Shown here piece after piece: positions 13,580-46,042 of a stretch of 64,000 nucleotides of DNA. Origin of the DNA: Inhella proteolytica (GTDB lineage: Bacteria; Pseudomonadota; Gammaproteobacteria; Burkholderiales; Burkholderiaceae_C); contig NZ_JAEDAK010000020.1 in the NCBI RefSeq assembly GCF_016093275.1, positions 1 through 64,000 on the forward strand. The letters are read 5' to 3'. A program made the position numbers and the translations under genes. The notes under the pieces are model-generated. The model worked only from the letters and a program-made list of their open reading frames with translations, had not been told where the DNA came from and searched no databases. How positions within the stretch are numbered: the first letter of the stretch is position 1; every line of letters starts with the position of its first letter.

Positions 13580-15532
13580 GTGGCGACTTACACCGGCAAC
13601 AACCTCAACAACGTCATCAAGGGCGGCAGCAACGCCGACAAGATCTACGGGCTGGGTGGCGATGACGAGCTGTGGGGCATGGACGGCAATGACTGGATCT
13701 ATGGCGGCGAGGGCAACGACCTGATCCGCGGCAACGACGGCGACGACACCCTGCTGGGCGAGGCCGGCAACGACCAGCTGATCGGCCACGAAGGCAATGA
13801 CAAGCTCTACGGCGGCGAGGGCAATGATTCGGCCTTCGGTGGTGACGACGACGACTGGTTCTCGGGCGGCAATGGCGACGACCACCTGGCCGGCGACAAC
13901 GGCGACGACGTGATCTGGGGTGAGGCCGGCAACGACTACCTGGAAGGCGGCGACGGCGACGACAAGCTCTACGGCGGCTATGGCAACGACAAGCTCGAGG
14001 GCGGCTACGGCGACGACCGCCTGGAAGGCGGCGACGGCGACGATGCGCTCTACGCCGGCGGCGGCAACAACGTGCTGGTGGGCGGCACCGGCCACGACAT
14101 CCTCTCCACCGCTGGCTTCGGCGCCTGGCTGGGCCCGACCAAGCTGTATGGCGGCACCGGCAACGACACCTACTACGTCACCCGTGTGTCCTCCTCCGTG
14201 CTGGTGGACGACGCAGTGCCTGAGGTAATCGAGTACGAATTCGAAGGCCACGACACCCTGCACCTGGACTCGTCCTTCTTCAACGAGATGAGCACGTACA
14301 ACCTGCCCGCCTTCATCGAAGACTTTGTGGCGCACCGCAACCCGGCGGCCGGCCTGTGGACCGAGTCCGACGAGCACATGAAGGTGGTCGGCAATGCGCT
14401 GGACAACCGCATGACCGGCACCAACGAGGACGACACCCTGATCGGCGGGGGCGGCAACGACACGATCTACAGCCGCAACCCCGCCTACGCCAGCCAGCCC
14501 CGCGTGGACAACGGCATCGGCCAGGATCAACTCGAGGGCGGCAGCGGCAATGACAAGTTGATCGAGGTCCAGGGCGACCTGGCCCGCATGTACGGTGGCA
14601 CCGGCGACGACACCTACACCCTGAGCGACAGCGGCTATGCCGGCACCGACAAGGCCACCTTCCGCGGCTGGGGCGTGCTGGAAGCCGCCAATGAAGGCTA
14701 CGACACCGTTTATTCCGCCACCGCCAGCACGCTGCTGCACACAAACGTCGAAGCCCTGATCTACACCGGCAACGCGGCGCAGACGCACCTCTGGGGCAAC
14801 GCCAGCGCCAACACCATCTACGGTGGCGGCAACTCGAACGACGACATCCGCGGCGAGGACGGCGACGACCGCCTCGACGGCGGCTGGGGCGAAGGCGCCG
14901 ACACCCTCCAGGGCGGCGCCGGCAACGACACCCTCACCGGTTGGGGCGGCAGCGATTTGCTGCGCGGCGGCACGGGCAACGACAGCCTGAACGGCGGCAG
15001 CGGCCCCGACAACCTGTTCGGCGACGACGGCGACGATCAGATGTGGGGCGACGACGGCGTGGACTTCCTCTACGGCGGCGCCGGCAAGGACGCCCTGCTG
15101 GGCGGCAACGGCGGTGACCGCCTGGAAGGCGAGGCGGGCGACGACCAGCTCTGGGGCAACGACGGCGACGACTATTTGGTGGGCGGCGCGGGCGTGGACC
15201 GCCTGACCGGCGGCAATGGCGCCGACCTGTTCATCTTCCAGGCCCTGAGCGATTCCCCCGGCTCGACCTTCGACTACATCAACGACTTTCAGCCCGGGGT
15301 GGACAAGATCGACCTCTGCGGCATCGACGCCCGCCCCACGATCGCAGGTGATCAGGCCTTCGGCTTCACGGGCTTCGACGCCCCGCAGGTCGGCCAGCCC
15401 GGCCAGGTTTGGGTGCTGCACGGGGGCGGTAGCACGTATGTGCAGGCCGACATCAACGGTGACGCGGTGGGCGACTTCATGGTCGTGCTGACGGGCATCC
15501 TGCCGCTCACCGAAGCCGATTTCCTGTTCTGA
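13580..15532 (+). CDS. RTX calcium-binding protein with serralysin-type C terminus
   Basis: This 650-residue protein starts at a GTG (ATYTGNNLNNVIKGG) with AAGGA upstream. It has no Sec signal. Two large blocks of nonapeptide GGxGxDxLx repeats (about residues 15-175 and 400-540) plus a short group near 275-300 form calcium-binding parallel beta-rolls. The final 100 residues (GADLFIFQALSDSPGS, then a DFQPGVDKIDL-type motif and ADINGDAVGDFMV) match the peptidase M10 serralysin C-terminal domain that precedes type I secretion signals; the protein ends ADFLF. No catalytic domain is visible, so it is more likely an adhesin, surface layer or matrix protein. No ABC transporter or membrane-fusion gene for type I export lies in the window. 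The stop is seven bases from the convergent VOC gene stop. Confidence 0.88.
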   Translation: MATYTGNNLNNVIKGGSNADKIYGLGGDDELWGMDGNDWIYGGEGNDLIRGNDGDDTLLGEAGNDQLIGHEGNDKLYGGEGNDSAFGGDDDDWFSGGNGDDHLAGDNGDDVIWGEAGNDYLEGGDGDDKLYGGYGNDKLEGGYGDDRLEGGDGDDALYAGGGNNVLVGGTGHDILSTAGFGAWLGPTKLYGGTGNDTYYVTRVSSSVLVDDAVPEVIEYEFEGHDTLHLDSSFFNEMSTYNLPAFIEDFVAHRNPAAGLWTESDEHMKVVGNALDNRMTGTNEDDTLIGGGGNDTIYSRNPAYASQPRVDNGIGQDQLEGGSGNDKLIEVQGDLARMYGGTGDDTYTLSDSGYAGTDKATFRGWGVLEAANEGYDTVYSATASTLLHTNVEALIYTGNAAQTHLWGNASANTIYGGGNSNDDIRGEDGDDRLDGGWGEGADTLQGGAGNDTLTGWGGSDLLRGGTGNDSLNGGSGPDNLFGDDGDDQMWGDDGVDFLYGGAGKDALLGGNGGDRLEGEAGDDQLWGNDGDDYLVGGAGVDRLTGGNGADLFIFQALSDSPGSTFDYINDFQPGVDKIDLCGIDARPTIAGDQAFGFTGFDAPQVGQPGQVWVLHGGGSTYVQADINGDAVGDFMVVLTGILPLTEADFLF

Positions 15533-36889: not shown

Positions 36890-37666
36890 TTACCCTTCTT
36901 TTGCAGGAGGGTTGAGCGAGCGCGGCGGCGCCTCGCGCCGCAGCTTCGCAAACGGCCCGAACAGCCAGGAGCGCACGGCGATCACCATGGTGTAGGGGCG
37001 CTTCTGGTCCGGGGGCAGGCGCTGGTCGGCCAGGTGTTGCTGGGCGAAGTCTTGCGCCACGCGCTGCAGGCGTTCGTTGAAGGCGGTGATCAGGGCCGGG
37101 CTGATCTGGCCGTGCACCAGCAGCAGCTTCTCGCCCTCGCCATCGAAGTCGCTGGCGAAGAACTCGTCCACCGCGTGTTCGCGGAAGAAGCGCATCACCG
37201 GCCCGCCCGGGCGCCAGCGGAAGGTCTTGGCCACCAGCAGGCGGTAGCGGTTCAGCGGCCGCAGCTCGATGAAGCCCAGCCGGTCCAGCTGCGTGAGGCA
37301 GCGGATGCCCTCGGCCTCGTCGTAGCGGTAGGTGGCCAGCACCTGCTCGAAGGGCCATTGCGAGAGGCAGCAGATCGCCATCAGCAGCAGCTTGGGGTCG
37401 CCCACCACCGCCTGCTCCTGCTCCACCGAGAGCTCGCGGCGCAGCGGCTGGGCGTCGGCCACGCGGCGCGCCAGGTCGGCGAAGTCCATCTTCAGCACGC
37501 GCAGCACCTCGTCGATGCGCGAGAGCGGCAGATCACCCTCGGCCGCGAACATGCGCTTGACGCTGCTCTCGGCCAGATCCAGGTGCTGCGCCAGTTCGGC
37601 GTAGGTGATGCCGGCGAGCTTGAGCTCGGCCTTCAGGGCGTTGATGAGGTCGCGCGTGCTAGACAT
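36890..37666 (-). CDS. XRE-type helix-turn-helix regulator next to the two-partner secretion genes
   Basis: This 258-residue cytoplasmic protein begins MSSTRDLINALKAELKLAGI. A helix-turn-helix at residues 20-65 has TYAELAQHLDLAESSVKRMF and SRIDEVLRVLKMDFADLAR. The rest is a roughly 190-residue effector part with LLLMAICCLSQWPFEQVL and RFFREHAVDEFFASDFDGEG, not recognised by family name; similar proteins occur in Burkholderiales as stand-alone regulators. The start is 11 bases after the stop of the TpsA-caspase gene on the same strand, so it is probably in the tps transcript and may control it. Confidence 0.8.
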   Translation of the reverse strand: MSSTRDLINALKAELKLAGITYAELAQHLDLAESSVKRMFAAEGDLPLSRIDEVLRVLKMDFADLARRVADAQPLRRELSVEQEQAVVGDPKLLLMAICCLSQWPFEQVLATYRYDEAEGIRCLTQLDRLGFIELRPLNRYRLLVAKTFRWRPGGPVMRFFREHAVDEFFASDFDGEGEKLLLVHGQISPALITAFNERLQRVAQDFAQQHLADQRLPPDQKRPYTMVIAVRSWLFGPFAKLRREAPPRSLNPPAKEG

Positions 37667-37677
37667 CCCGGCAGTAT

Positions 37678-40600
37678 CTATTTCTCCAGGCTGCGCTTTT
37701 CGAACAGGTAGTCAGTGTTGTCCTGGTGCCCGGCCGCGCGTGCGGCGCCGTAGCGCGGGGTCTGCGGGAACTCGCGCGCCACCTCGAAGCGCACACGCTC
37801 GTAGAGCTGGTTGCCGATCTGCCAGGCGCTGAGCTGCTTGAGCCGCTCCATCAGATGCCAGGCGAACACGGAGTGGCCGTCGCGCCCGGTGTCGGCCACG
37901 GGTTCGTTGCCGCCGGAGGAGAGCACCACCACGGCCTTGCGGCTGAGCAGGCTGTCGGGGGCGGCGCTGCGGTCCACTTGCACCTTCTCGCTGCCGGCCA
38001 GGGTGCCGGAGTAGCAACTGTCTGAGACCAGCAGGGTCTGGCGCGCGCCGATCAGACCCACCAGGCGGGCGATGTCGGCATTGCTGAGCCAGCTCTGCGG
38101 CTGGTCGGCACGGCTGTCGGCGGGCAGCCAGTAGCCCATGTTGGCGCTGGGTTCGACGACGCCGTGGCCGGCGTAGTAGATCAGCACGGAGTCGTTGCCG
38201 TCGGTCTCGAGCGCGAGCTGGTTGAGCGCGCGCACCATGGCTTCCTTGCTGGCGTTTTCCAGCGTCAGGGTCTCGTAGCCGAGCTGCTCTTCGAGCAGGC
38301 GCTGCATGGCGCGCACGTCGTCGAGCGCGCCGCTCAGGTCGGCCACGCGGTCGTCCTGGTAGTCGTTGACGCCGATCAGCAGCGCCACCTTGCGCGCGAT
38401 GGTGGGCAGCGCGGCCTCGCGCACCTTGCGCGCCTGGGCGCGGCGCAGGCGCTCCAGCCCGGTCTGGGTCTTGGCGGCGGGCGCGGCCTGGGGCGTCGTG
38501 CTGGCCAGGCGGGCGGCCTGGATCTGCGCCTTCAGCGCCTCGGTGATCAGGCACTGGCCGCTGGCCAGTTCGGGCTCGCTGGTGCAGGGACGTACATCCG
38601 CCAGGGCCGGGTCCAGCTGCAGGCGGTGCAGGGCGTCGGCGAAGACCTTCTTCTTGTAGTTGTCGCGCGCGGCCAGCAGGGTGATGAGCTCGGCGCGCGA
38701 CATCTGGCTGCTGTTGATGGGCGTGAAGCTGGTGCCACCGCTGCCCTGGGCCACGCCGGGCAGGGCGTCGAGGGTGCGGCCCTCGCTGGGGGTGGAGAGT
38801 TGCACCAGCGGCGCGCTCTGCGTCAGCGCCGTGCCCAGGGCCACCTGGGTGTCCACCGCCGCGGGCGCCACGCTGGCGCTGGTGCTGGGCGGGCCGGAAC
38901 GGTAGAAGGCGCCGCTGCCGGCGGCACCGACGACGAGGTTGCCGCTGGCATCGCGGCTGAAGGCGGCGGGGCTGACGCTGTACTGCGTGAAGCTGGGGCT
39001 CAGCGCCCCCAGGCTGCCGGTGCTGCCCTGGTCCATGAAGACGAGCCAGCGGCCATTCGGCGTTTGCAGGGCATCCGCCCCGGCCTCGTTGCTGAAGCGC
39101 TGCATAGGGCTGCTGCCGTCGGCGCCGAGCAGGGTGATGGCGTCGCCGGGGGCGGTGGAGCGCAGGGCGGCACCGGGCAGCAGGGTGAAGTCATCGATCG
39201 CCAGTTGCAGGCGCGAGGGAATGCCCAGCACCCCTGCAAAGCTCACCAGCTGCCCTTCAATGGTGATGCGCGTGACCGCAGCGCTGGGCATGTCGCGCAG
39301 GTTCTCGCCGAGTTGACGAAGTTCGGCGCTGCTCACCACCGCGTTCGGGGCGCGCTCGGTGAGCTTGAGGTGGAGCAGGCTGCCGGCGGACAGCTGCGGG
39401 GTCCCTGCGCCCTGGGTGTCGTTCTCCAGCCCGACGCTGTTACCCGTGCCATCCAGCAAGAGGGTGCTGCCCGCGCTCAGGCGCCACGGGCCGGCAACTT
39501 CGATGGTGGCGGAGGTCCCGAGGGATTCGCGGCCGGTCAGGATCAAGTCCTTGGTGGCGGTGACGGTGCCGGCGTTGTTGGCAAGGCGCACGCCAAAGTC
39601 GTCGGCGCCGGTTCCGGTGAGCCGAATGGTGCCGCCGCTCAAGGTGCTGCGCTCGTACACCGCCACACCCATGCCGCTGTGCCCGGCGCCATTGCGCGAG
39701 CTGCCGGTCAGCTCGATGGTCTCGGCCTGCAGATTGCTGTTGAGCAAGGCCACGCCCACCAGGGCGAGACTCTGGCCGGCCAGTTCCGGGCTGGCGGGGT
39801 CGGGCGCCACACCGCTCATCTCGATGCGGCCGGTGGGGCCCGGGGCGCTCAGCTGGCTGTCGCGCACCTGGATGCCGAAGGCGTGATCGCCGTACTCGCC
39901 CGGCAACTCTCCAAAGCCACCCAGGGCACGCAGGCCGATCGCTCCGCCCCCAGCCGCCAGGCGGCTGTCAAACACTGCCAGGCGCGAATCCCGGCTTTCC
40001 AGGTTGATGTTGAGCGGGGCGCCACTGGACACGATTTCCGAACCCGTCAGGAGCATGCGGCCCGCGCTGGCGCTGAAGCGCCCACCGGCCTGCACGGTGG
40101 CGTCGATGATCTGCACGAAGCCGCTGTTGGCAACTTGCGGGCCGACCAGTTCGAACACGCCGTTGCTCGGGCCGCGCAGGATGCCCGCGCCCAGGCTCAC
40201 GCCGCGGTTGGTGCCTTCCAGGCGCACCAGGCTGGCCGCCGCGGCGTCGAGCAGTTGCTCATCGGCCGCACTGCCGCTAATGAAGCTGCTGCGGTTGGAG
40301 ACAAGGGTCACTGTGCCCCCGGTGGCGGTAATCAAGGCCGGCCCGCTGTACGCATTGGCCGACACGCCGGCGCCACCAAACTCAGCCAGCTGGTTGATCT
40401 GCCCATCGATCCGCAGTTCAGCACTGGAGGAGCTGGCGTTGAGCGTGAGGCGCGCGTTGTTGCCGCGCACCCCGCTGCCACCGAAGCCGCGCAACCACAG
40501 GCGATCGGTGGCGATCAGATGCGTGTTGGCGCGCAGATCGATGCCACGCTCCGGCAAAACGGTTCCCGCCACCAGGGGGCCGCTGCCCGCGGCACCCACC

Positions 40601-42447
40601 ATGTTGATGACCCGGGCGCGAATTTCCATGGGGTTGACGCCCGTGCCGTCGACGCGGATGGCGGTGGCCCGGCCGCCCACGCTGGTGGCGGTTCCGGCCT
40701 GGGCCGAGAACGTGCCGCTTCCCAGGTCGAAGAGGCTGCCGTTGAGGTAGATCCCGATGCGGGACGCGGGTGCGAACGGAGCGCTCGTGAGATCGGCGAG
40801 CGCCGCGGCGTAGGCGTCGGGGGTGAAGCCGCCCTCGAACTCCAGCTGGCGCGAGGTCTGGCTGCCGATCGTCACGTTGCCGCCGCGCGTGTCGATCACC
40901 GAGTCCACGATGGCAATGGCACCGGAGCTGCCACGGGCCGCCTGCACGAAGAGGTTGAGCGGGTTGCCGGTCGTTTGCACGCGGCTGTTGCGCATGCCGA
41001 TGTGGCGGTGGGCGTCGAAGGTGAGCGACACCCCGGCTGGCGGCGCCACCACCAGGTTCATGCCATCCACGGTGATGTCGCCAGCCTGGCTGTTGGCGCC
41101 CGCGCTGGCCGTGGCGATGGTGACGGAATTGCCCGCATTCAGCGCCGCCGCGATGGTGGCGGTGGCGATCGTGGAGTCGTCGCCCGTGCTGGTGAAGAGC
41201 GGGCCGGCGCTGATGTTGGTGTTGCTGGCGGTGTCCGACACCAGGATGTTGTTCGGATCGATCAGCCAGTTGCCGGCTCGGCCGCCCGGCGCCTGCAGGT
41301 TCAGGCCGGCGGGCCGCGCATCCAACCAGCCGCCCGAGGTCTCCACGAAGCCGCCGTTGCCGCCCTGCGGTCCGCCCTGGGCGCTGAAGTGCCCGTAGGC
41401 GCGCGTGGCCTCGTTGCTCCACAGCCAGATCGAGCCGCCGTCGCCGGCCTGCGTGGCGTCGGCGCGCAGTTCGGCCTGCGGGCCCATGTAGACGGCGCGG
41501 GCGTTGGGCAGTGCCGCATCGCGACCGCCGGCCCCGCCACCCACATAGATGCGCCCGCCGCCCGCGGGCGCCGAGGTGTCCGCGCGGGTGCCATCGAGCA
41601 GGGCCACTTCCTGGCCCAGCAGCTGGATCTCGCCGCCGGCGGCGGCGGTGACGCTGCCCGCGCCCAGGCTCAGGCGCTGGCTGGCCTGCAGCACGATGCG
41701 GCCCTGGGCGTCGGTGCCGAGCGAGTCGGCCTGCACCAGACCCTGCTGGTTGACGCTGGCGGCATGCACGTCGATGCGGCCGCCCGGCGCGCTCAAGGCG
41801 CCCAGGTTCAGCACCTCGCCAGCGGGCACGTCGACGCGCACGGCGAGGTTGGGCGCGCCGCTGTCCACCAACTCCACCTGACGCGCCGCGGCCAGCTGCA
41901 CCTGGCCAGCCTCGATCGAACCCGTGTTCTCCACCCGGCCGCCTAACAGCACGATCTGCCCGCCCAGGCTGCCGCGCAGCTGGCCCTCGTTGCGCAGGCT
42001 GGCGCCCTGGTCGGCGCTGAAGCGGTAGCGGCCGCTGATGAAGTCGGCGTCGCTGAGACTCAGCGTAGACGTGACGAGGCTGGCCACATCCACGCGCGCG
42101 CCGGCACCGAACAGCACGCCGTGCGGGTTCAGCAGCCAGACCTGGCCGTTCGAGCCCAGGCTGCCGAGGATCTGCGAGGGGTCGCTGCCGACCACGCGGT
42201 TCAGCACCTTGGAGCTGGCATTGGCCTGCTCGAAGTACACGCCGGCGCCGGGGCCGATCGAGAAGCTCTGCCAGTTCAGGATGGCGTTCGGGCTGTTGCG
42301 CACCGTCAGCTGGTTGCCCTGCTGCTGCAACTGGGCCTGGCCCTGCTGCACCTGCAGACCGGCGGGCAGGGTGGCGGCCAAGGCGGGCGTGCAGCACAGC
42401 GCGATCAGGGCGCGGGCGAGCGGGCGAAGCGTCGGAAAGCGGTTCAT
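37678..42447 (-). CDS. Two-partner secretion exoprotein (TpsA) with C-terminal caspase-like protease domain
   Basis: This is a 1589-residue protein. Residues 1-24 are a Sec signal (ALCCTPALA). Residues 25 to about 280 form the TPS (filamentous hemagglutinin N-terminal) secretion domain, with NSPNAILNWQSFSIG and LLNPHGVLFGAGARVDVAS (NPHG at 107-110). A long repeat-rich beta-helix runs to about 1180. A Ser/Thr/Pro linker and a helical segment (AARDNYKKKVFADAL) follow. Residues about 1350-1585 are a C14 caspase-like domain: KVALLIGVNDYQDD, catalytic His1428 in LIYYAGHG, catalytic Cys1478 in VSDSCYSG, then KAVVVLSSGGNEPV and GHSVFAWHLM. The His-Cys spacing of 50 is normal for caspase-type enzymes. 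TpsB (42464-44053) is the likely export pore. The predicted product is a surface or secreted protein carrying its own cysteine protease; substrate and processing are unknown. Confidence 0.9.
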   Translation of the reverse strand: MNRFPTLRPLARALIALCCTPALAATLPAGLQVQQGQAQLQQQGNQLTVRNSPNAILNWQSFSIGPGAGVYFEQANASSKVLNRVVGSDPSQILGSLGSNGQVWLLNPHGVLFGAGARVDVASLVTSTLSLSDADFISGRYRFSADQGASLRNEGQLRGSLGGQIVLLGGRVENTGSIEAGQVQLAAARQVELVDSGAPNLAVRVDVPAGEVLNLGALSAPGGRIDVHAASVNQQGLVQADSLGTDAQGRIVLQASQRLSLGAGSVTAAAGGEIQLLGQEVALLDGTRADTSAPAGGGRIYVGGGAGGRDAALPNARAVYMGPQAELRADATQAGDGGSIWLWSNEATRAYGHFSAQGGPQGGNGGFVETSGGWLDARPAGLNLQAPGGRAGNWLIDPNNILVSDTASNTNISAGPLFTSTGDDSTIATATIAAALNAGNSVTIATASAGANSQAGDITVDGMNLVVAPPAGVSLTFDAHRHIGMRNSRVQTTGNPLNLFVQAARGSSGAIAIVDSVIDTRGGNVTIGSQTSRQLEFEGGFTPDAYAAALADLTSAPFAPASRIGIYLNGSLFDLGSGTFSAQAGTATSVGGRATAIRVDGTGVNPMEIRARVINMVGAAGSGPLVAGTVLPERGIDLRANTHLIATDRLWLRGFGGSGVRGNNARLTLNASSSSAELRIDGQINQLAEFGGAGVSANAYSGPALITATGGTVTLVSNRSSFISGSAADEQLLDAAAASLVRLEGTNRGVSLGAGILRGPSNGVFELVGPQVANSGFVQIIDATVQAGGRFSASAGRMLLTGSEIVSSGAPLNINLESRDSRLAVFDSRLAAGGGAIGLRALGGFGELPGEYGDHAFGIQVRDSQLSAPGPTGRIEMSGVAPDPASPELAGQSLALVGVALLNSNLQAETIELTGSSRNGAGHSGMGVAVYERSTLSGGTIRLTGTGADDFGVRLANNAGTVTATKDLILTGRESLGTSATIEVAGPWRLSAGSTLLLDGTGNSVGLENDTQGAGTPQLSAGSLLHLKLTERAPNAVVSSAELRQLGENLRDMPSAAVTRITIEGQLVSFAGVLGIPSRLQLAIDDFTLLPGAALRSTAPGDAITLLGADGSSPMQRFSNEAGADALQTPNGRWLVFMDQGSTGSLGALSPSFTQYSVSPAAFSRDASGNLVVGAAGSGAFYRSGPPSTSASVAPAAVDTQVALGTALTQSAPLVQLSTPSEGRTLDALPGVAQGSGGTSFTPINSSQMSRAELITLLAARDNYKKKVFADALHRLQLDPALADVRPCTSEPELASGQCLITEALKAQIQAARLASTTPQAAPAAKTQTGLERLRRAQARKVREAALPTIARKVALLIGVNDYQDDRVADLSGALDDVRAMQRLLEEQLGYETLTLENASKEAMVRALNQLALETDGNDSVLIYYAGHGVVEPSANMGYWLPADSRADQPQSWLSNADIARLVGLIGARQTLLVSDSCYSGTLAGSEKVQVDRSAAPDSLLSRKAVVVLSSGGNEPVADTGRDGHSVFAWHLMERLKQLSAWQIGNQLYERVRFEVAREFPQTPRYGAARAAGHQDNTDYLFEKRSLEK

Positions 42448-42463
42448 GTCGACTCTCCCGGCC

Positions 42464-44053
42464 TTAGAAGCGGTGTTGGAGGCTGAAGTGGGCGTGGACG
42501 TCGTCGCGCCGGGTCTGCAGCGCGTCTTTCAGCGCCACGCCCACATCCAGGCGCAGCTGGGTGTCGCCCTGGCCCGCGCGCAGGCCCAGGCCCAGGCTGG
42601 CCAGCTCGCAGTGGCGGCGCGTGTTCACGCAGGGTGTGCTGCCGCGGTTGCGCGCCCAGCCCAGGTCGGCGAACACGATGCCCTGCAGGCGCCAGCGTTC
42701 GCTGAAGCGCGCCCCCCAGTTCGGGCTCCACCACTCCAGGCTGGCCTGCAGGCCGGAGTCGCCATTGAGCTCGCGCTCCTCGTAGCCGCGCACGCTGAAC
42801 TGGCCGCCCAGGCCGAAGGCCTCGGCGGGCACCAGGGCGTCGGGGCTGAGCTGGCCGTTCAGCTGCAGCTCCAGGCTGCCCCAGTCGTCCAGCGGCAGAC
42901 CCAGGTTGCTGCCGAAGCGCAGCAAGGCATAGCGGCGCTTGGCGTCGGGGCGGACGGCCTCGAAGTCGGCCTGGCGGCCGTCGCCCCCGCCCAGGGCCAG
43001 ATTGGTCTGCAGGCTGGCATGCAGGCCCCAGCGGATGCGCTCCACCGCCTGCGCGGTGTAGCCCAGGCTGAGCGGCTGCAGGCGCACGCTGGCGCCGGCC
43101 GAGCCGCAGGCGCCGGGCGGCAGCCCGGCAATCGAGCAGTCGTTCAGGTAGTGGCGCTGCTCCAGCGCCACTTGCAGGCGCTGGTCCACATTGCCGACGC
43201 GCTCCAGGTAGCGGCTCAGGCGCAGGCCCATCACGCGGCCGCGGCCGGAAAAGGCCAGGTCACCCGCGGCCGTCTGGCTGGTGCCGCCGTCCACATCGGA
43301 CCAGGCACCGTAGGCATCCAGTGCCAGCAGGCTGGCATAGAAGGGCTGGCGCAGGCCGGCGCTGAAGACCTTGACGGCCGAAGGCTCCTCGGGCGCGGTC
43401 TGGAACTCGGTGCTGAGCACGCGGTCGCCGCCGGCGAAGTTGGCGTGCTGCCAGCCCAGCGCGGCACGCCAGCGGCCGGTGCGCTCGCCGCCGCTGTTGT
43501 CCAGCCGCGCGTGCCAGCGACTGGGGGGCTGCTGCTGCACCGTCAGCACCGCGCCCACCTGGCCCGGCTGCGCGCCGGGCTGCAGCAGCACCTGGGTCTG
43601 GTGGGCGGGGTTTTCGTTGGCCAGCTGGATTTGCGCGTCCAGCCGGCGCACCTCGGGCGTGCGGCCGATCTGCAGCGCGGGCAGGCGCGCGCGCACCGCC
43701 TCGTGCTGCGCGGCCGGCACACCGCGCACCTCGACGGCGCTGAGCTGCCCCTCCACCACGCGCAGCTGCACCACGCCGCCGCTCAGGGTCTGCTCGGGCA
43801 CGAATGCCACCACGCCGCCGTAACCGGCCTCGCGGTACAGCGCCTGCAGCGCCGCCGCCGCCTCGCGCAAGCGGGCCACGCTGCTGCTGCCCTGGAAGGG
43901 CGCCAAGCGCGCCTGGATGCGCTCGGCCGGCAACAGGGTGTTGCCCTGCACCTCGAAGCGCTGCACCTGCAAAGGCGGGCTGTCGGCCGCGTGCGCGGCT
44001 GGGCGTACCGCCAGCAGACAGAGCAATACCAGGGGCAGGACGGTTCCACGCAT
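42464..44053 (-). CDS. TpsB-type outer membrane transporter (ShlB/FhaC/HecB family)
   Basis: This 529-residue protein has a signal peptide (MRGTVLPLVLLCLLAV, cleavage near AHAA-DSP). A POTRA domain begins QRFEVQGNTLLPAERIQARL and includes LREAAAALQALYREAGYGG and LRVVEGQLSAVEVRG. A 16-strand ShlB-type barrel follows, with the conserved VRGY motif at about 421-424 (GGQFSVRGYEERE). It recognises the TPS domain of its TpsA partner and exports it. The ATG at 44053 has GAGG nine bases before it; ATGs further upstream give a weaker signal peptide. It is 16 bp before the TpsA-caspase gene, so the pair is an operon. Confidence 0.93.
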   Translation of the reverse strand: MRGTVLPLVLLCLLAVRPAAHAADSPPLQVQRFEVQGNTLLPAERIQARLAPFQGSSSVARLREAAAALQALYREAGYGGVVAFVPEQTLSGGVVQLRVVEGQLSAVEVRGVPAAQHEAVRARLPALQIGRTPEVRRLDAQIQLANENPAHQTQVLLQPGAQPGQVGAVLTVQQQPPSRWHARLDNSGGERTGRWRAALGWQHANFAGGDRVLSTEFQTAPEEPSAVKVFSAGLRQPFYASLLALDAYGAWSDVDGGTSQTAAGDLAFSGRGRVMGLRLSRYLERVGNVDQRLQVALEQRHYLNDCSIAGLPPGACGSAGASVRLQPLSLGYTAQAVERIRWGLHASLQTNLALGGGDGRQADFEAVRPDAKRRYALLRFGSNLGLPLDDWGSLELQLNGQLSPDALVPAEAFGLGGQFSVRGYEERELNGDSGLQASLEWWSPNWGARFSERWRLQGIVFADLGWARNRGSTPCVNTRRHCELASLGLGLRAGQGDTQLRLDVGVALKDALQTRRDDVHAHFSLQHRF

Positions 44054-44315
44054 GGTCTGGGGCCTCATCGCTTGCCGGCTGCGGGCAGCCCCGCGCCAGG
44101 TTCTTGGAAGGCCCGCCCGTGGGCCGGCCACCTGATCGTGACAAGTTGTTGTACGCCTGCGCTGCGGCAGCGTCCTCCGGGAAGGTGCGGAGAGACAAAG
44201 CGCGCTCGGGCGCGCATGGCGATACCGGGCGAAGCATCAGATCGGCCCGACCGACTGGACGCTGGTCAAGCCCTGGCGGGTTCGCCAGCATCGCGGCCTC
44301 TACAGAGCCACGACC

Positions 44316-45539
44316 ATGCAAAGACGACGACTCCTCTGCTGCGGTGCACTGGCCGCGGCCGGCCTGTTCTCCGAGCTGGCGGCCGCCACGTCCACCGCGC
44401 CGAATGGCGCCCATGCTTTGGCCCATCAGGCGCTGGATGGGCTGGACGCCCGCCAGCTGTGGGACGCGCATTGCCATTTGCTCGGCACTGGCGACTCGGG
44501 CTCCGGATGCACCCTGCACCCTTCGCTGGACCAGTGGTGGCACCCCGTGGAGTACGCCCGCAAACGCGCCATCCTGCACGGCGCGGGGGTACCGGCCCAC
44601 GCGCCTTCAGTGGACCGCGCCTATGTGCAGCGCCTGCTGCAACTGGCTGAGGGCTTCCCACCCGGCGCGCGCTGGTTGCTCTACGCCTTTGAGCAGGCCC
44701 ATGACGCCAGCGGCCAGGCCTGTGCGGGCGGCACCACCTTTCATGTGCCCAATGCCTATGCAGCACAAGTTGCGGCCGCGCACCCGGAGCGCTTCGGTTT
44801 CGTCGCCTCCATCCACCCCTACCGTGCCGATGCGCTGGAAGCCCTGGAGCAGGCCTTGACCCAGGGCGCGCTGGCCATCAAATGGCTGCCCAGCAGCATG
44901 GGCATCGACCCCGCCGATCCGGCCTGCAGTCCCTTCTACGAACGCCTGGCGCGCAGCCGCACGCAACTGATCATTCACTGCGGCGACGAACACGCCGTGC
45001 CCGGCATGGGCCGGCAGGACTTCGGCAACCCGCTGCGCGTGCGCGCCGCGCTGCGCCAGGGGGTGCGCGTCATCGTGGCGCATTGCGCTTCGCTCGGCTA
45101 TGCCGAAGACCTGGACCGGCGCAGCACACCGAAGCGCCCGGCCTTCGAGCTGTTCGCGCGCCTGATGGACGAGCCGGGTTGGGAGGATCTGCTGCTCGGC
45201 GATGTGTCCGCCGTCACGCAGGTCAATCGATCACCCGAGGTGCTGCGTACCCTGCTGACGCGGCGTGACTGGCAGCCCCGCCTGCTGCATGGCTCCGACC
45301 ACCCCCTGCCCGGCCTGGCCCCGTTGGTGCGCTTGCCTGCCCTGGTGCGCGCCGGCTTGCTGGAGCAGCAGCAGGTGGCCGGCCTGCAGGCCCTGCGCGC
45401 CCACAACCCGCTGCTCTTCGATCTGGCGCTCAAGCGCAGCCTGCGTTGGCAGGACCAGGCCTTCGATACCGCGGTCTTCCATACCGCCCGCCACTTCGCC
45501 TCGGCATCGCGCCGCGATACCGAATGGCGCAACAACTGA
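44316..45539 (+). CDS. Exported amidohydrolase-family (amidohydro_2) metal enzyme
   Basis: This 407-residue protein has an N-terminal signal with a triple Arg (MQRRRLLCCGALAAAGLF), possibly Tat. The TIM-barrel metal-site pattern is present: DAHCH (first His pair), an HPYRADALEAL region, IKWLPSSMG with the strand-4 Lys, LIIHCGDEH, VIVAHCAS and the late Asp in HGSDHPLPG. Amidohydro_2 enzymes act as decarboxylases or hydrolases; the substrate cannot be told. It is divergent from tpsB across 262 bp and is followed by the YiaA/B gene after 74 bp on the same strand. Confidence 0.85.
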   Translation: MQRRRLLCCGALAAAGLFSELAAATSTAPNGAHALAHQALDGLDARQLWDAHCHLLGTGDSGSGCTLHPSLDQWWHPVEYARKRAILHGAGVPAHAPSVDRAYVQRLLQLAEGFPPGARWLLYAFEQAHDASGQACAGGTTFHVPNAYAAQVAAAHPERFGFVASIHPYRADALEALEQALTQGALAIKWLPSSMGIDPADPACSPFYERLARSRTQLIIHCGDEHAVPGMGRQDFGNPLRVRAALRQGVRVIVAHCASLGYAEDLDRRSTPKRPAFELFARLMDEPGWEDLLLGDVSAVTQVNRSPEVLRTLLTRRDWQPRLLHGSDHPLPGLAPLVRLPALVRAGLLEQQQVAGLQALRAHNPLLFDLALKRSLRWQDQAFDTAVFHTARHFASASRRDTEWRNN

Positions 45540-45613
45540 AACCGTTCCTGAAGGCTTTGACCCCGTGGAGGCGCGCAGACACTATGCGCCCCACAACGAA
45601 CCCGGAGCCCCTG

Positions 45614-46042
45614 ATGAACACCCCTCGCGCCCCACGTGACACCAAGGCCTGGCAGCTGCAGGTTTGGATCTCGTTCGGCATCGCCGTGCTGCTGTGTGGC
45701 ACGGGCCTGGCCTATTTGCCCGTCTCGCCGATCGAGCGTGCCTTCATGGTGATGGCCTATGTGTTCTGCCTCTGCGCCGTGTTCGTGCTGGCCAAGCATG
45801 TGCGCGACCGCCATGCCGGCATGCCCGAGACCCCGGGCTGGAGCTTTGTGGTCTGGGGCAGCTTCGCAGCGGCCATGGGCCTCACCGGCTGGGGCCTGTG
45901 GGAGCTGGAGATCAGCCCGCCCTATGCCGCTTTCATGCTGGTGAGCTGGCTGTTCCTGATCTCTTCCACCTTCACCCTGGCCAAGACCCTGCGGGACGCC
46001 TACGAGGACCGTCGTGTGCGTCCGCATCACCCGAGCGAATAA
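45614..46042 (+). CDS. YiaA/YiaB family inner membrane protein
   Basis: This 142-residue membrane protein has four hydrophobic segments in two repeats. Each repeat pairs a helix like WISFGIAVLLCGTGLAYL or VVWGSFAAAMGLTGWGLW with a helix like MVMAYVFCLCAVFVLAKHVRD or MLVSWLFLISSTFTLAKTLRD. This internal duplication is the YiaA/YiaB layout. GGAG lies eight bases before the ATG at 45614. The role is unknown. It begins a run of closely spaced plus-strand genes that reaches the ynb-type genes. Confidence 0.85.
   Translation: MNTPRAPRDTKAWQLQVWISFGIAVLLCGTGLAYLPVSPIERAFMVMAYVFCLCAVFVLAKHVRDRHAGMPETPGWSFVVWGSFAAAMGLTGWGLWELEISPPYAAFMLVSWLFLISSTFTLAKTLRDAYEDRRVRPHHPSE

Follow-up and report, generated by a model that had tools for sequence, protein, structure and literature searches.

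Where does a caspase-like protease come to rest when it forms the C-terminal end of a two-partner secretion (TPS) exoprotein? The question is raised by a locus of Inhella proteolytica (assembly GCF_016093275.1), which lies in the first 64,000 nucleotides of contig NZ_JAEDAK010000020.1; this whole stretch is referred to as the window. The locus encodes a TpsB transporter and, next to it, a TpsA exoprotein that carries a C14 caspase domain at its C terminus and is called TpsA-caspase here. The reading put forward, with a probability of about 0.42, is that TpsA-caspase would span the outer membrane, its passenger lying outside and its periplasmic orthocaspase acting on its own stalk or on nearby envelope proteins. 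From the N terminus on, the protein consists of a signal-peptide-like stretch (by eye), a TPS domain, a variable passenger, a helical segment with a cysteine pair, and the C-terminal caspase.

42464 to 44053, reverse strand: tpsB, outer-membrane TpsB transporter (Pfam ShlB 2.7e-24, POTRA_2 1.3e-16); a GTG start at 44131 is also possible in the open frame
37678 to 42447, reverse strand: tpsA-caspase, 1589 amino acids, ATG start (open frame and Pfam domains)
41623 to 42369, reverse strand: TPS secretion domain, residues 27-275, with NPHG at 107-110 (Pfam PF05860)
38500 to 38697, reverse strand: helical segment, residues 1251-1316, with Arg1261 (38665-38667) and Cys1288/Cys1299 (C-X10-C)
37753 to 38394, reverse strand: C14 caspase domain, residues 1352-1565 (Pfam PF00656)
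38164 to 38166, reverse strand: His1428
38014 to 38016, reverse strand: Cys1478

The preliminary description of this DNA had announced a TpsA of 1589 residues fused to a caspase-like domain, and one open frame does carry both a TPS match (PF05860, 3.8e-30, 106.1 bits against a curated cut-off of 33.5) and a Peptidase_C14 match (PF00656, 9.3e-25, 88.1 bits against 21.4). The motifs also stand where it had placed them, with NPHG at residues 107-110, and with His1428 in YYAGHG and Cys1478 in SDSCYSG, 50 residues apart; the gap between the end of the tpsB frame at 42464 and the tpsA start at 42447 is the 16 bp that it gave. Moreover, the structure prediction of the C-terminal module and the Pfam match bear out the caspase fold and the C14 membership. 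The NCBIfam model caspase_w_EACC1 was missed, with 85.2 bits at a cut-off of 140. Because both domains exceed their curated cut-offs and occur in the same order in 50 distinct frames, the fusion is not a product of chance. TpsA-caspase would accordingly be read, from its sequence, as an exported and active-looking orthocaspase at the C-terminal end of a type Vb exoprotein, whose export past the inner membrane is likely. In an alignment with metacaspases, Asp1377 and Asp1476 are the equivalents of TbMC2 Asp95 and Asp211, the predicted acids of the S1 pocket, and both of them, like the catalytic His and Cys, are identical in all 68 rows of the family alignment described below. Cleavage is predicted to occur after Arg or Lys.

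The survey of TpsA proteins with this C terminus, which the preliminary description had envisaged, yields a recurring and mostly betaproteobacterial family, present in some environmental bacteria, with 50 distinct frames that join TPS and caspase, drawn from the window and from loci L012, L046-L057, and L080-L158. TpsB lies upstream on the same strand, less than 600 bp from the TPS domain, in 48 of the 50; the remaining two (L095 and L137), in which the 5' end is missing, begin at the edge of a contig. No domain follows the caspase in any frame, and it stops 0-21 residues short of the C terminus. Counted from the TPS domain on, the frames range from 1138 to 3515 residues with both ends conserved, which indicates that the passenger varies and the ends stay. 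A scan of named genomes gave 79 loci from the best 80 of 168 related stretches, including Rubrivivax, Roseateles, Massilia, Ramlibacter, Rhodocyclus, Nitrosomonas, Nitrosospira, and Gallionella. Contig ends cut many of these frames, and the missing TPS domain in L092, L094, L136, L141, L144, and others is no evidence.

Within the taxonomic family, the C-terminal 341 residues gave 12 matches of at least 228 bits in 10 of 150 genomes, the next match scoring 130 bits, and a profile of the cysteine-pair segment gave 22 matches in 17 of 299 genomes, which makes TpsA-caspase a minority trait. Across the phylum, the C-terminal module matched in 33 of 398 genomes at E 1e-25. Four of 72,556 plasmid records matched it at E 1e-30, all from Azospirillum, and phages gave no match at 1e-10. 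TPS and caspase also occur in one protein outside the main group, in Terasakiella (L157) and L258, and the Azospirillum plasmid proteins have both domains as judged from the annotated name and the caspase match.

Profile searches of the source genome gave 11 matches to C14, of which three share a frame, and 3 to TPS. Contig C43 carries a second fusion of about 2095 amino acids, with a TPS domain, seven YDG repeats, the same C-terminal unit, and an adjacent TpsB.

L012 5003 to 11344, reverse strand, and L282 1237 to 8325, reverse strand: second TpsA-caspase with TpsB (contig C43)

Two further caspases of this genome are found at L014 1862-4570 and L015 1359-4121; one sits behind a stretch that presumably resembles polysaccharide deacetylase, the other behind repeat-like sequence.

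What sets the end of these proteins apart is a unit made of the helical segment, the cysteine pair, and the caspase. Rows of the 68-row alignment were required to match the helix/cysteine profile, so that the conservation of this segment is partly by choice; within it, Arg1261 and the first cysteine are the two residues upstream of the caspase that are identical in 68 of 68 rows, and the second cysteine is found in its column in 64 of 68. Arg1261 is a candidate cut site for a protease with Arg/Lys preference, or else a structural residue. The spacing of the pair is C-X10-C in 62 rows, C-X7-C in 4, and C-X6-C in 2. Of the 50 full frames, which were not selected for the segment, 49 have the pair 27-144 residues ahead of the caspase; only Terasakiella L157 does not. 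The predicted structure of the module has helices at model residues 7-24 and 26-34, and the alignment shows a variable stretch between the cysteine-pair segment and the caspase.

Apart from Cys18 and Cys19 of the signal-peptide-like start, the cysteines of TpsA-caspase are just the pair and the catalytic residue, three in all. The number of cysteines from the TPS domain on is odd in 49 of 50 fusions (34 with three), whereas it is odd in 9 of 33 caspase-less TpsA frames with a TPS match of at least 80 bits, which served as the control (Fisher 1.8e-12, kinship ignored). An odd number, as pairs plus one free catalytic thiol, fits passage through an oxidising periplasm, and the paired cysteines are predicted to form a disulfide.

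The idea that the cysteine pair is a stand-alone anchor shared with caspase-less TpsAs was rejected, since all 22 matches of its profile have a caspase downstream; the sequence of the segment therefore marks the caspase unit. Caspase-less proteins have a similar layout only. A pair occurs in the last 100 residues of 7 of 35 complete caspase-less TpsA frames, and L200, L211, L213, and L214 end, by eye, in a helix-like stretch with a cysteine pair. The 35 frames, from which the control of 33 was taken, come from 60 regions, of which 12 dropped out for want of a TPS match to our own profile and 13 because their 3' end was missing; the regions were chosen mostly by rank among TPS-profile matches, leaving out known caspase fusions and some other rows.

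A version without the TPS domain keeps the two partners together. In two Comamonas records (L148, and L150, which equals L055) and in L263, a full TpsB with ShlB and POTRA_2 is followed by a caspase protein with a signal-peptide-like start (by eye), a Pro-rich stretch, the cysteine-pair segment, and the caspase.

L148 7538 to 10891: TpsB and TPS-less caspase
L150 7617 to 10729: TpsB and TPS-less caspase
L263 4823 to 8017: TpsB and TPS-less caspase

A genome-wide profile search gave no PF05860 match in the genomes of these three loci; drafts can miss genes, and the L263 genome (G270) is a single contig. The same profile matched 62 of 120 genomes of the family in another run, and G240 in one of the runs behind this negative; the named control genomes gave no match in any of these runs. 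A tree built from 64 caspase domains unites the three in a single clade (100/100); they sit inside a larger clade of 22 rows (99/98), and each of its remaining members either has a TPS domain or is truncated at a contig end. Owing to this nesting, the TPS domain and passenger were probably lost once, in one event and not three, with TpsB and caspase kept together. Together with the cysteine pair, this clade favours a periplasmic caspase coupled to TpsB over a shed one.

The genes around the family bear on what the caspase may act upon. The flanks of 78 distinct caspase loci (L154 included) were clustered, with profiles made from single seeds and checked by Pfam and NCBIfam; 27 of the 78 have less than 15 kb of DNA. 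OmpA-like genes were found at 33 of 78 loci, Ser/Thr kinases at 18 (with DUF4384 in all four checked), and core genes of a type VI secretion system (T6SS) at 9, among them the second copy of the source genome and two loci with TssA alone. Among 20 kinase frames in which the glycine loop is visible (one of them a duplicate), 18 have their most hydrophobic 19-residue window more than 250 residues past that loop, a position from which DUF4384 may be periplasmic. The second copy on C43 shares its stretch with TssA, B, C, E, F, Hcp, ImpE, FHA, Ser/Thr kinase, and OmpA-like genes; in the extra flanks, 17.7 kb separate this copy from TssC, and the interval contains FHA (T6SS_FHA_C above cut-off), kinase, and OmpA-like genes. 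At the window copy, none of 7 T6SS profiles matched in the 64 kb, and kinase and OmpA-like neighbours are also absent. Among the 150 genomes drawn from the family, TssC is present in 8 of 10 with strong module matches, one of which has the TPS-less version, versus 35 of 140 others (Fisher 0.00076, relatedness ignored). In 6 of 18 genomes, TpsA-caspase and TssC share a contig at a distance of 1.9-18.3 kb; G011, G206, and G296 carry the fusion without TssC, and in G183 TssC is 1.7 Mb away on the same contig. A further neighbour family, recurring at 16 loci (e.g., L099 12409-13449 and L012 3809-4915), has no Pfam or NCBIfam match at 0.001.

Retention of the caspase in the periplasm is favoured. 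In the proposed mechanism, export through TpsB would begin at the N terminus and carry the TPS domain and the passenger outside, and the C-terminal unit of helical segment, disulfide pair, and caspase would fold in the periplasm and stay under TpsB. By analogy with the anchors of HxuA, HMW1, and CdrA, the caspase would hang in the periplasm below the transporter. There, the protease may cut its own stalk, so that the passenger is released or re-set, or it may cut neighbouring envelope proteins. The preliminary description had the protease carried to the surface or outside, perhaps released by cleavage in a linker. Its first step, export across the inner membrane, is likely; its end point is one of two readings of the final location, and it is doubted here because the caspase follows a pair resembling TpsA retention anchors and because the TPS-less clade keeps TpsB and caspase. 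Release by linker cleavage is possible, and in the alignment the linker is not conserved.

Several observations weigh against periplasmic retention. The predicted structure reaches a predicted template modelling score (pTM) of 0.92 for the whole module, which suggests docking of the helical/cysteine segment onto the caspase rather than passage through the TpsB barrel. The segment is present without any TPS domain in L152 and L241, which are sister to the TPS group in the tree, and a similar helix without the cysteine pair precedes, by eye, the caspase of the DUF4347 giants and of Azospirillum; on this evidence, the segment is part of the caspase unit and perhaps no plug for TpsB. Likewise, among 20 phylum-wide regions with strong module matches, only 2 (L240 and L258) have TPS in the caspase frame. 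No TpsB is annotated, in an incomplete gene table, beside two Azospirillum plasmid copies (L280 4408-9714 and L281 4501-9732), which are annotated as filamentous hemagglutinin N-terminal domain-containing and have the caspase at their end. Four others of the 20 phylum-wide regions that were checked hold the DUF4347 giants themselves (L242, L244, L251, and L253), which end in a caspase without a cysteine pair, have cadherin-like matches in three of four (one below cut-off) and Ig-like Big_5 in one, and branch just outside the cysteine-pair group.

The serious rival is a protease at the surface or released from it, in which TpsB exports the whole chain and the caspase, once folded on the outer side, attacks surface proteins, matrix, or neighbouring cells, perhaps as a free enzyme; it is judged somewhat doubtful, and still the best placed of the alternatives. 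TPS proteases do exist, such as LepA in a passage of a 2017 review (PMC5422565), small disulfide loops need not block translocation according to the part of PMC8151025 that deals with them, and in Azospirillum and Terasakiella the C-terminal caspase has no adjacent cysteine pair. The cysteine pair before the caspase in 49 of 50 frames and the TPS-less clade, in which TpsB and caspase persist although no TPS domain is present to direct export, speak for the periplasm instead. A role that requires no catalysis, with the caspase domain acting as a folding brake by which translocation is halted and the passenger held, is improbable: export could be stopped by a compact domain at the C terminus, as with the FhaB prodomain, which remains inside according to a title in the reference list of PMC5422565, but the catalytic His and Cys and the two predicted S1 Asp do not vary in the 68 rows, as expected of a working protease.

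As a contact-linked T6SS accessory, the passenger would bind or sense a neighbour and the periplasmic caspase would feed into the Ser/Thr kinase, FHA, and OmpA-like proteins beside T6SS genes. The flank counts, the TssC enrichment, and the linkage in 6 of 18 genomes agree with this, but no T6SS core gene was found in the available flanks at 69 of 78 loci, nor at the window copy, and four genomes lack TssC or have it far away; this explanation is unlikely. Hardly more probable, indeed a shade less, is an outside-in proteolytic relay, in which the surface passenger reports contact or adhesion and the caspase positioned beneath TpsB cleaves a protein of the envelope (its own stalk, an OmpA-like protein, or the DUF4384 part of the membrane Ser/Thr kinase), thereby switching adhesion and, where linked, T6SS attack. 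Least credible is a toxin of the contact-dependent inhibition (CDI) kind with the caspase as C-terminal warhead delivered into other cells. The C-terminal position on a TpsA with TpsB would suit it, but neither VENN nor [QE]LYN, the two junction motifs looked for, occurs in any of the 50 frames, and no immunity-like gene was recognised among the 14 largest flank clusters, some of which are antisense frames and the identifiable ones of which are OmpA-like, kinase, FHA, and T6SS genes.

Downstream of tpsA, the preliminary description had added a regulator to the system. Two genes frame the locus:

36890 to 37666, reverse strand: XRE-type open reading frame (Pfam HTH_26, 8.5e-6)
45446 to 46042, window: yiaA-like gene frame

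The 11 bp between the tpsA stop and the start of the XRE-type frame agree with that description. The membership of the regulator does not stand, as XRE is widespread, being found in 31 of 60 genomes of the family, and has no match at the other 92 loci of one search (duplicates included). G021, of the same genus, has the XRE gene and no TPS-domain match, with only a 71-bit caspase match. The XRE match starts 64 bp (G005), 134 bp (G058), and 2.9 kb (G021) from the yiaA-like match; in the window (36890-46042) an amidohydrolase, tpsB, and tpsA, about 8 kb together, separate the two genes. The proximity in the three other genomes suggests that the tpsBA block was inserted beside XRE, or was lost in the others; the guanine-plus-cytosine content of the block is without contrast, 0.71 versus 0.70.

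Among known systems, the closest are TpsA proteins that stay attached to the cell. In HxuA, according to passages of PMC4873976, a helix probably occupies the HxuB barrel, leaving the disulfide and the extreme C terminus on the periplasmic side, and the 2017 review gives the same C-terminal anchoring for HMW1 and HxuA (PMC5422565); CdrA has a cysteine hook (PMC11898600) and is cut by the periplasmic LapG (PMC5422565, PMC11898600). As far as these passages go, TpsA-caspase shares with HMW1, HxuA, and CdrA the TPS domain, the TpsB, a large passenger, and a helix with a cysteine pair near the end. In contrast to them, it has 290 further residues after the pair, including a complete caspase, so that the pair is not at the extreme C terminus. 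The likeness to the portrayed CdrA-LapG system is a protease acting on a TpsA at its periplasmic face, which is only proposed here; the difference is that LapG is a separate protein, whereas the C14 protease is part of TpsA. LapG is a cysteine protease of family C93. The source genome has one Peptidase_C93 (LapG-type) match, on contig C22 at 15056-15376 (L159), which suggests that a distinct adhesin protease may be present in the periplasm as well.

LepA is not known to have a caspase fold and would differ in this from TpsA-caspase. Both are two-partner-secreted proteases, as far as the review passage describes LepA (PMC5422565). Like the orthocaspases, which are the p20-only prokaryotic C14 proteins, TpsA-caspase has a p20 fold, a His/Cys dyad, and an acidic pocket. 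Its p20 domain, however, is at the C terminus of an exported giant, while in the orthocaspases, in the part of PMC5756287 concerned, extra domains are commonly C-terminal to p20. An unfused counterpart occurs in three adjacent genes of contig C11, where a caspase-like (CHAT) protein stands beside a TPS pair.

L013 2291 to 9260, reverse strand: TpsB-like frame (by eye), TPS-domain protein, and CHAT-domain protein (contig C11)

The TpsA-caspase fusion was not found described in open-licence PubMed Central (PMC) papers, as judged from titles, abstract starts, and some passages among the matches listed, and the text of a 2012 survey (PMC3501461) contains no word beginning with haemagg- or hemagg-, its architecture figure not being covered. 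The closest prior hint is a supplementary legend in PMC539331, which mentions weak metacaspase matches near Campylobacter TPS loci. Databases already contain such proteins under a TPS name, as the Azospirillum plasmid records do. Each component is known; what appears new, as far as searched, is their combination and its spread, together with the TPS-less version and a partial link to T6SS. Homologues of caspases in bacteria are discussed mostly around cell death and often as cytoplasmic enzymes. An exported, TpsB-paired lineage, partly near T6SS and kinase genes, would give them a role in the envelope. Two-partner secretion, for its part, would gain a built-in protease, whereas the literature passages at hand show separate ones only, namely LapG on CdrA and SphB1 on the filamentous hemagglutinin FHA.

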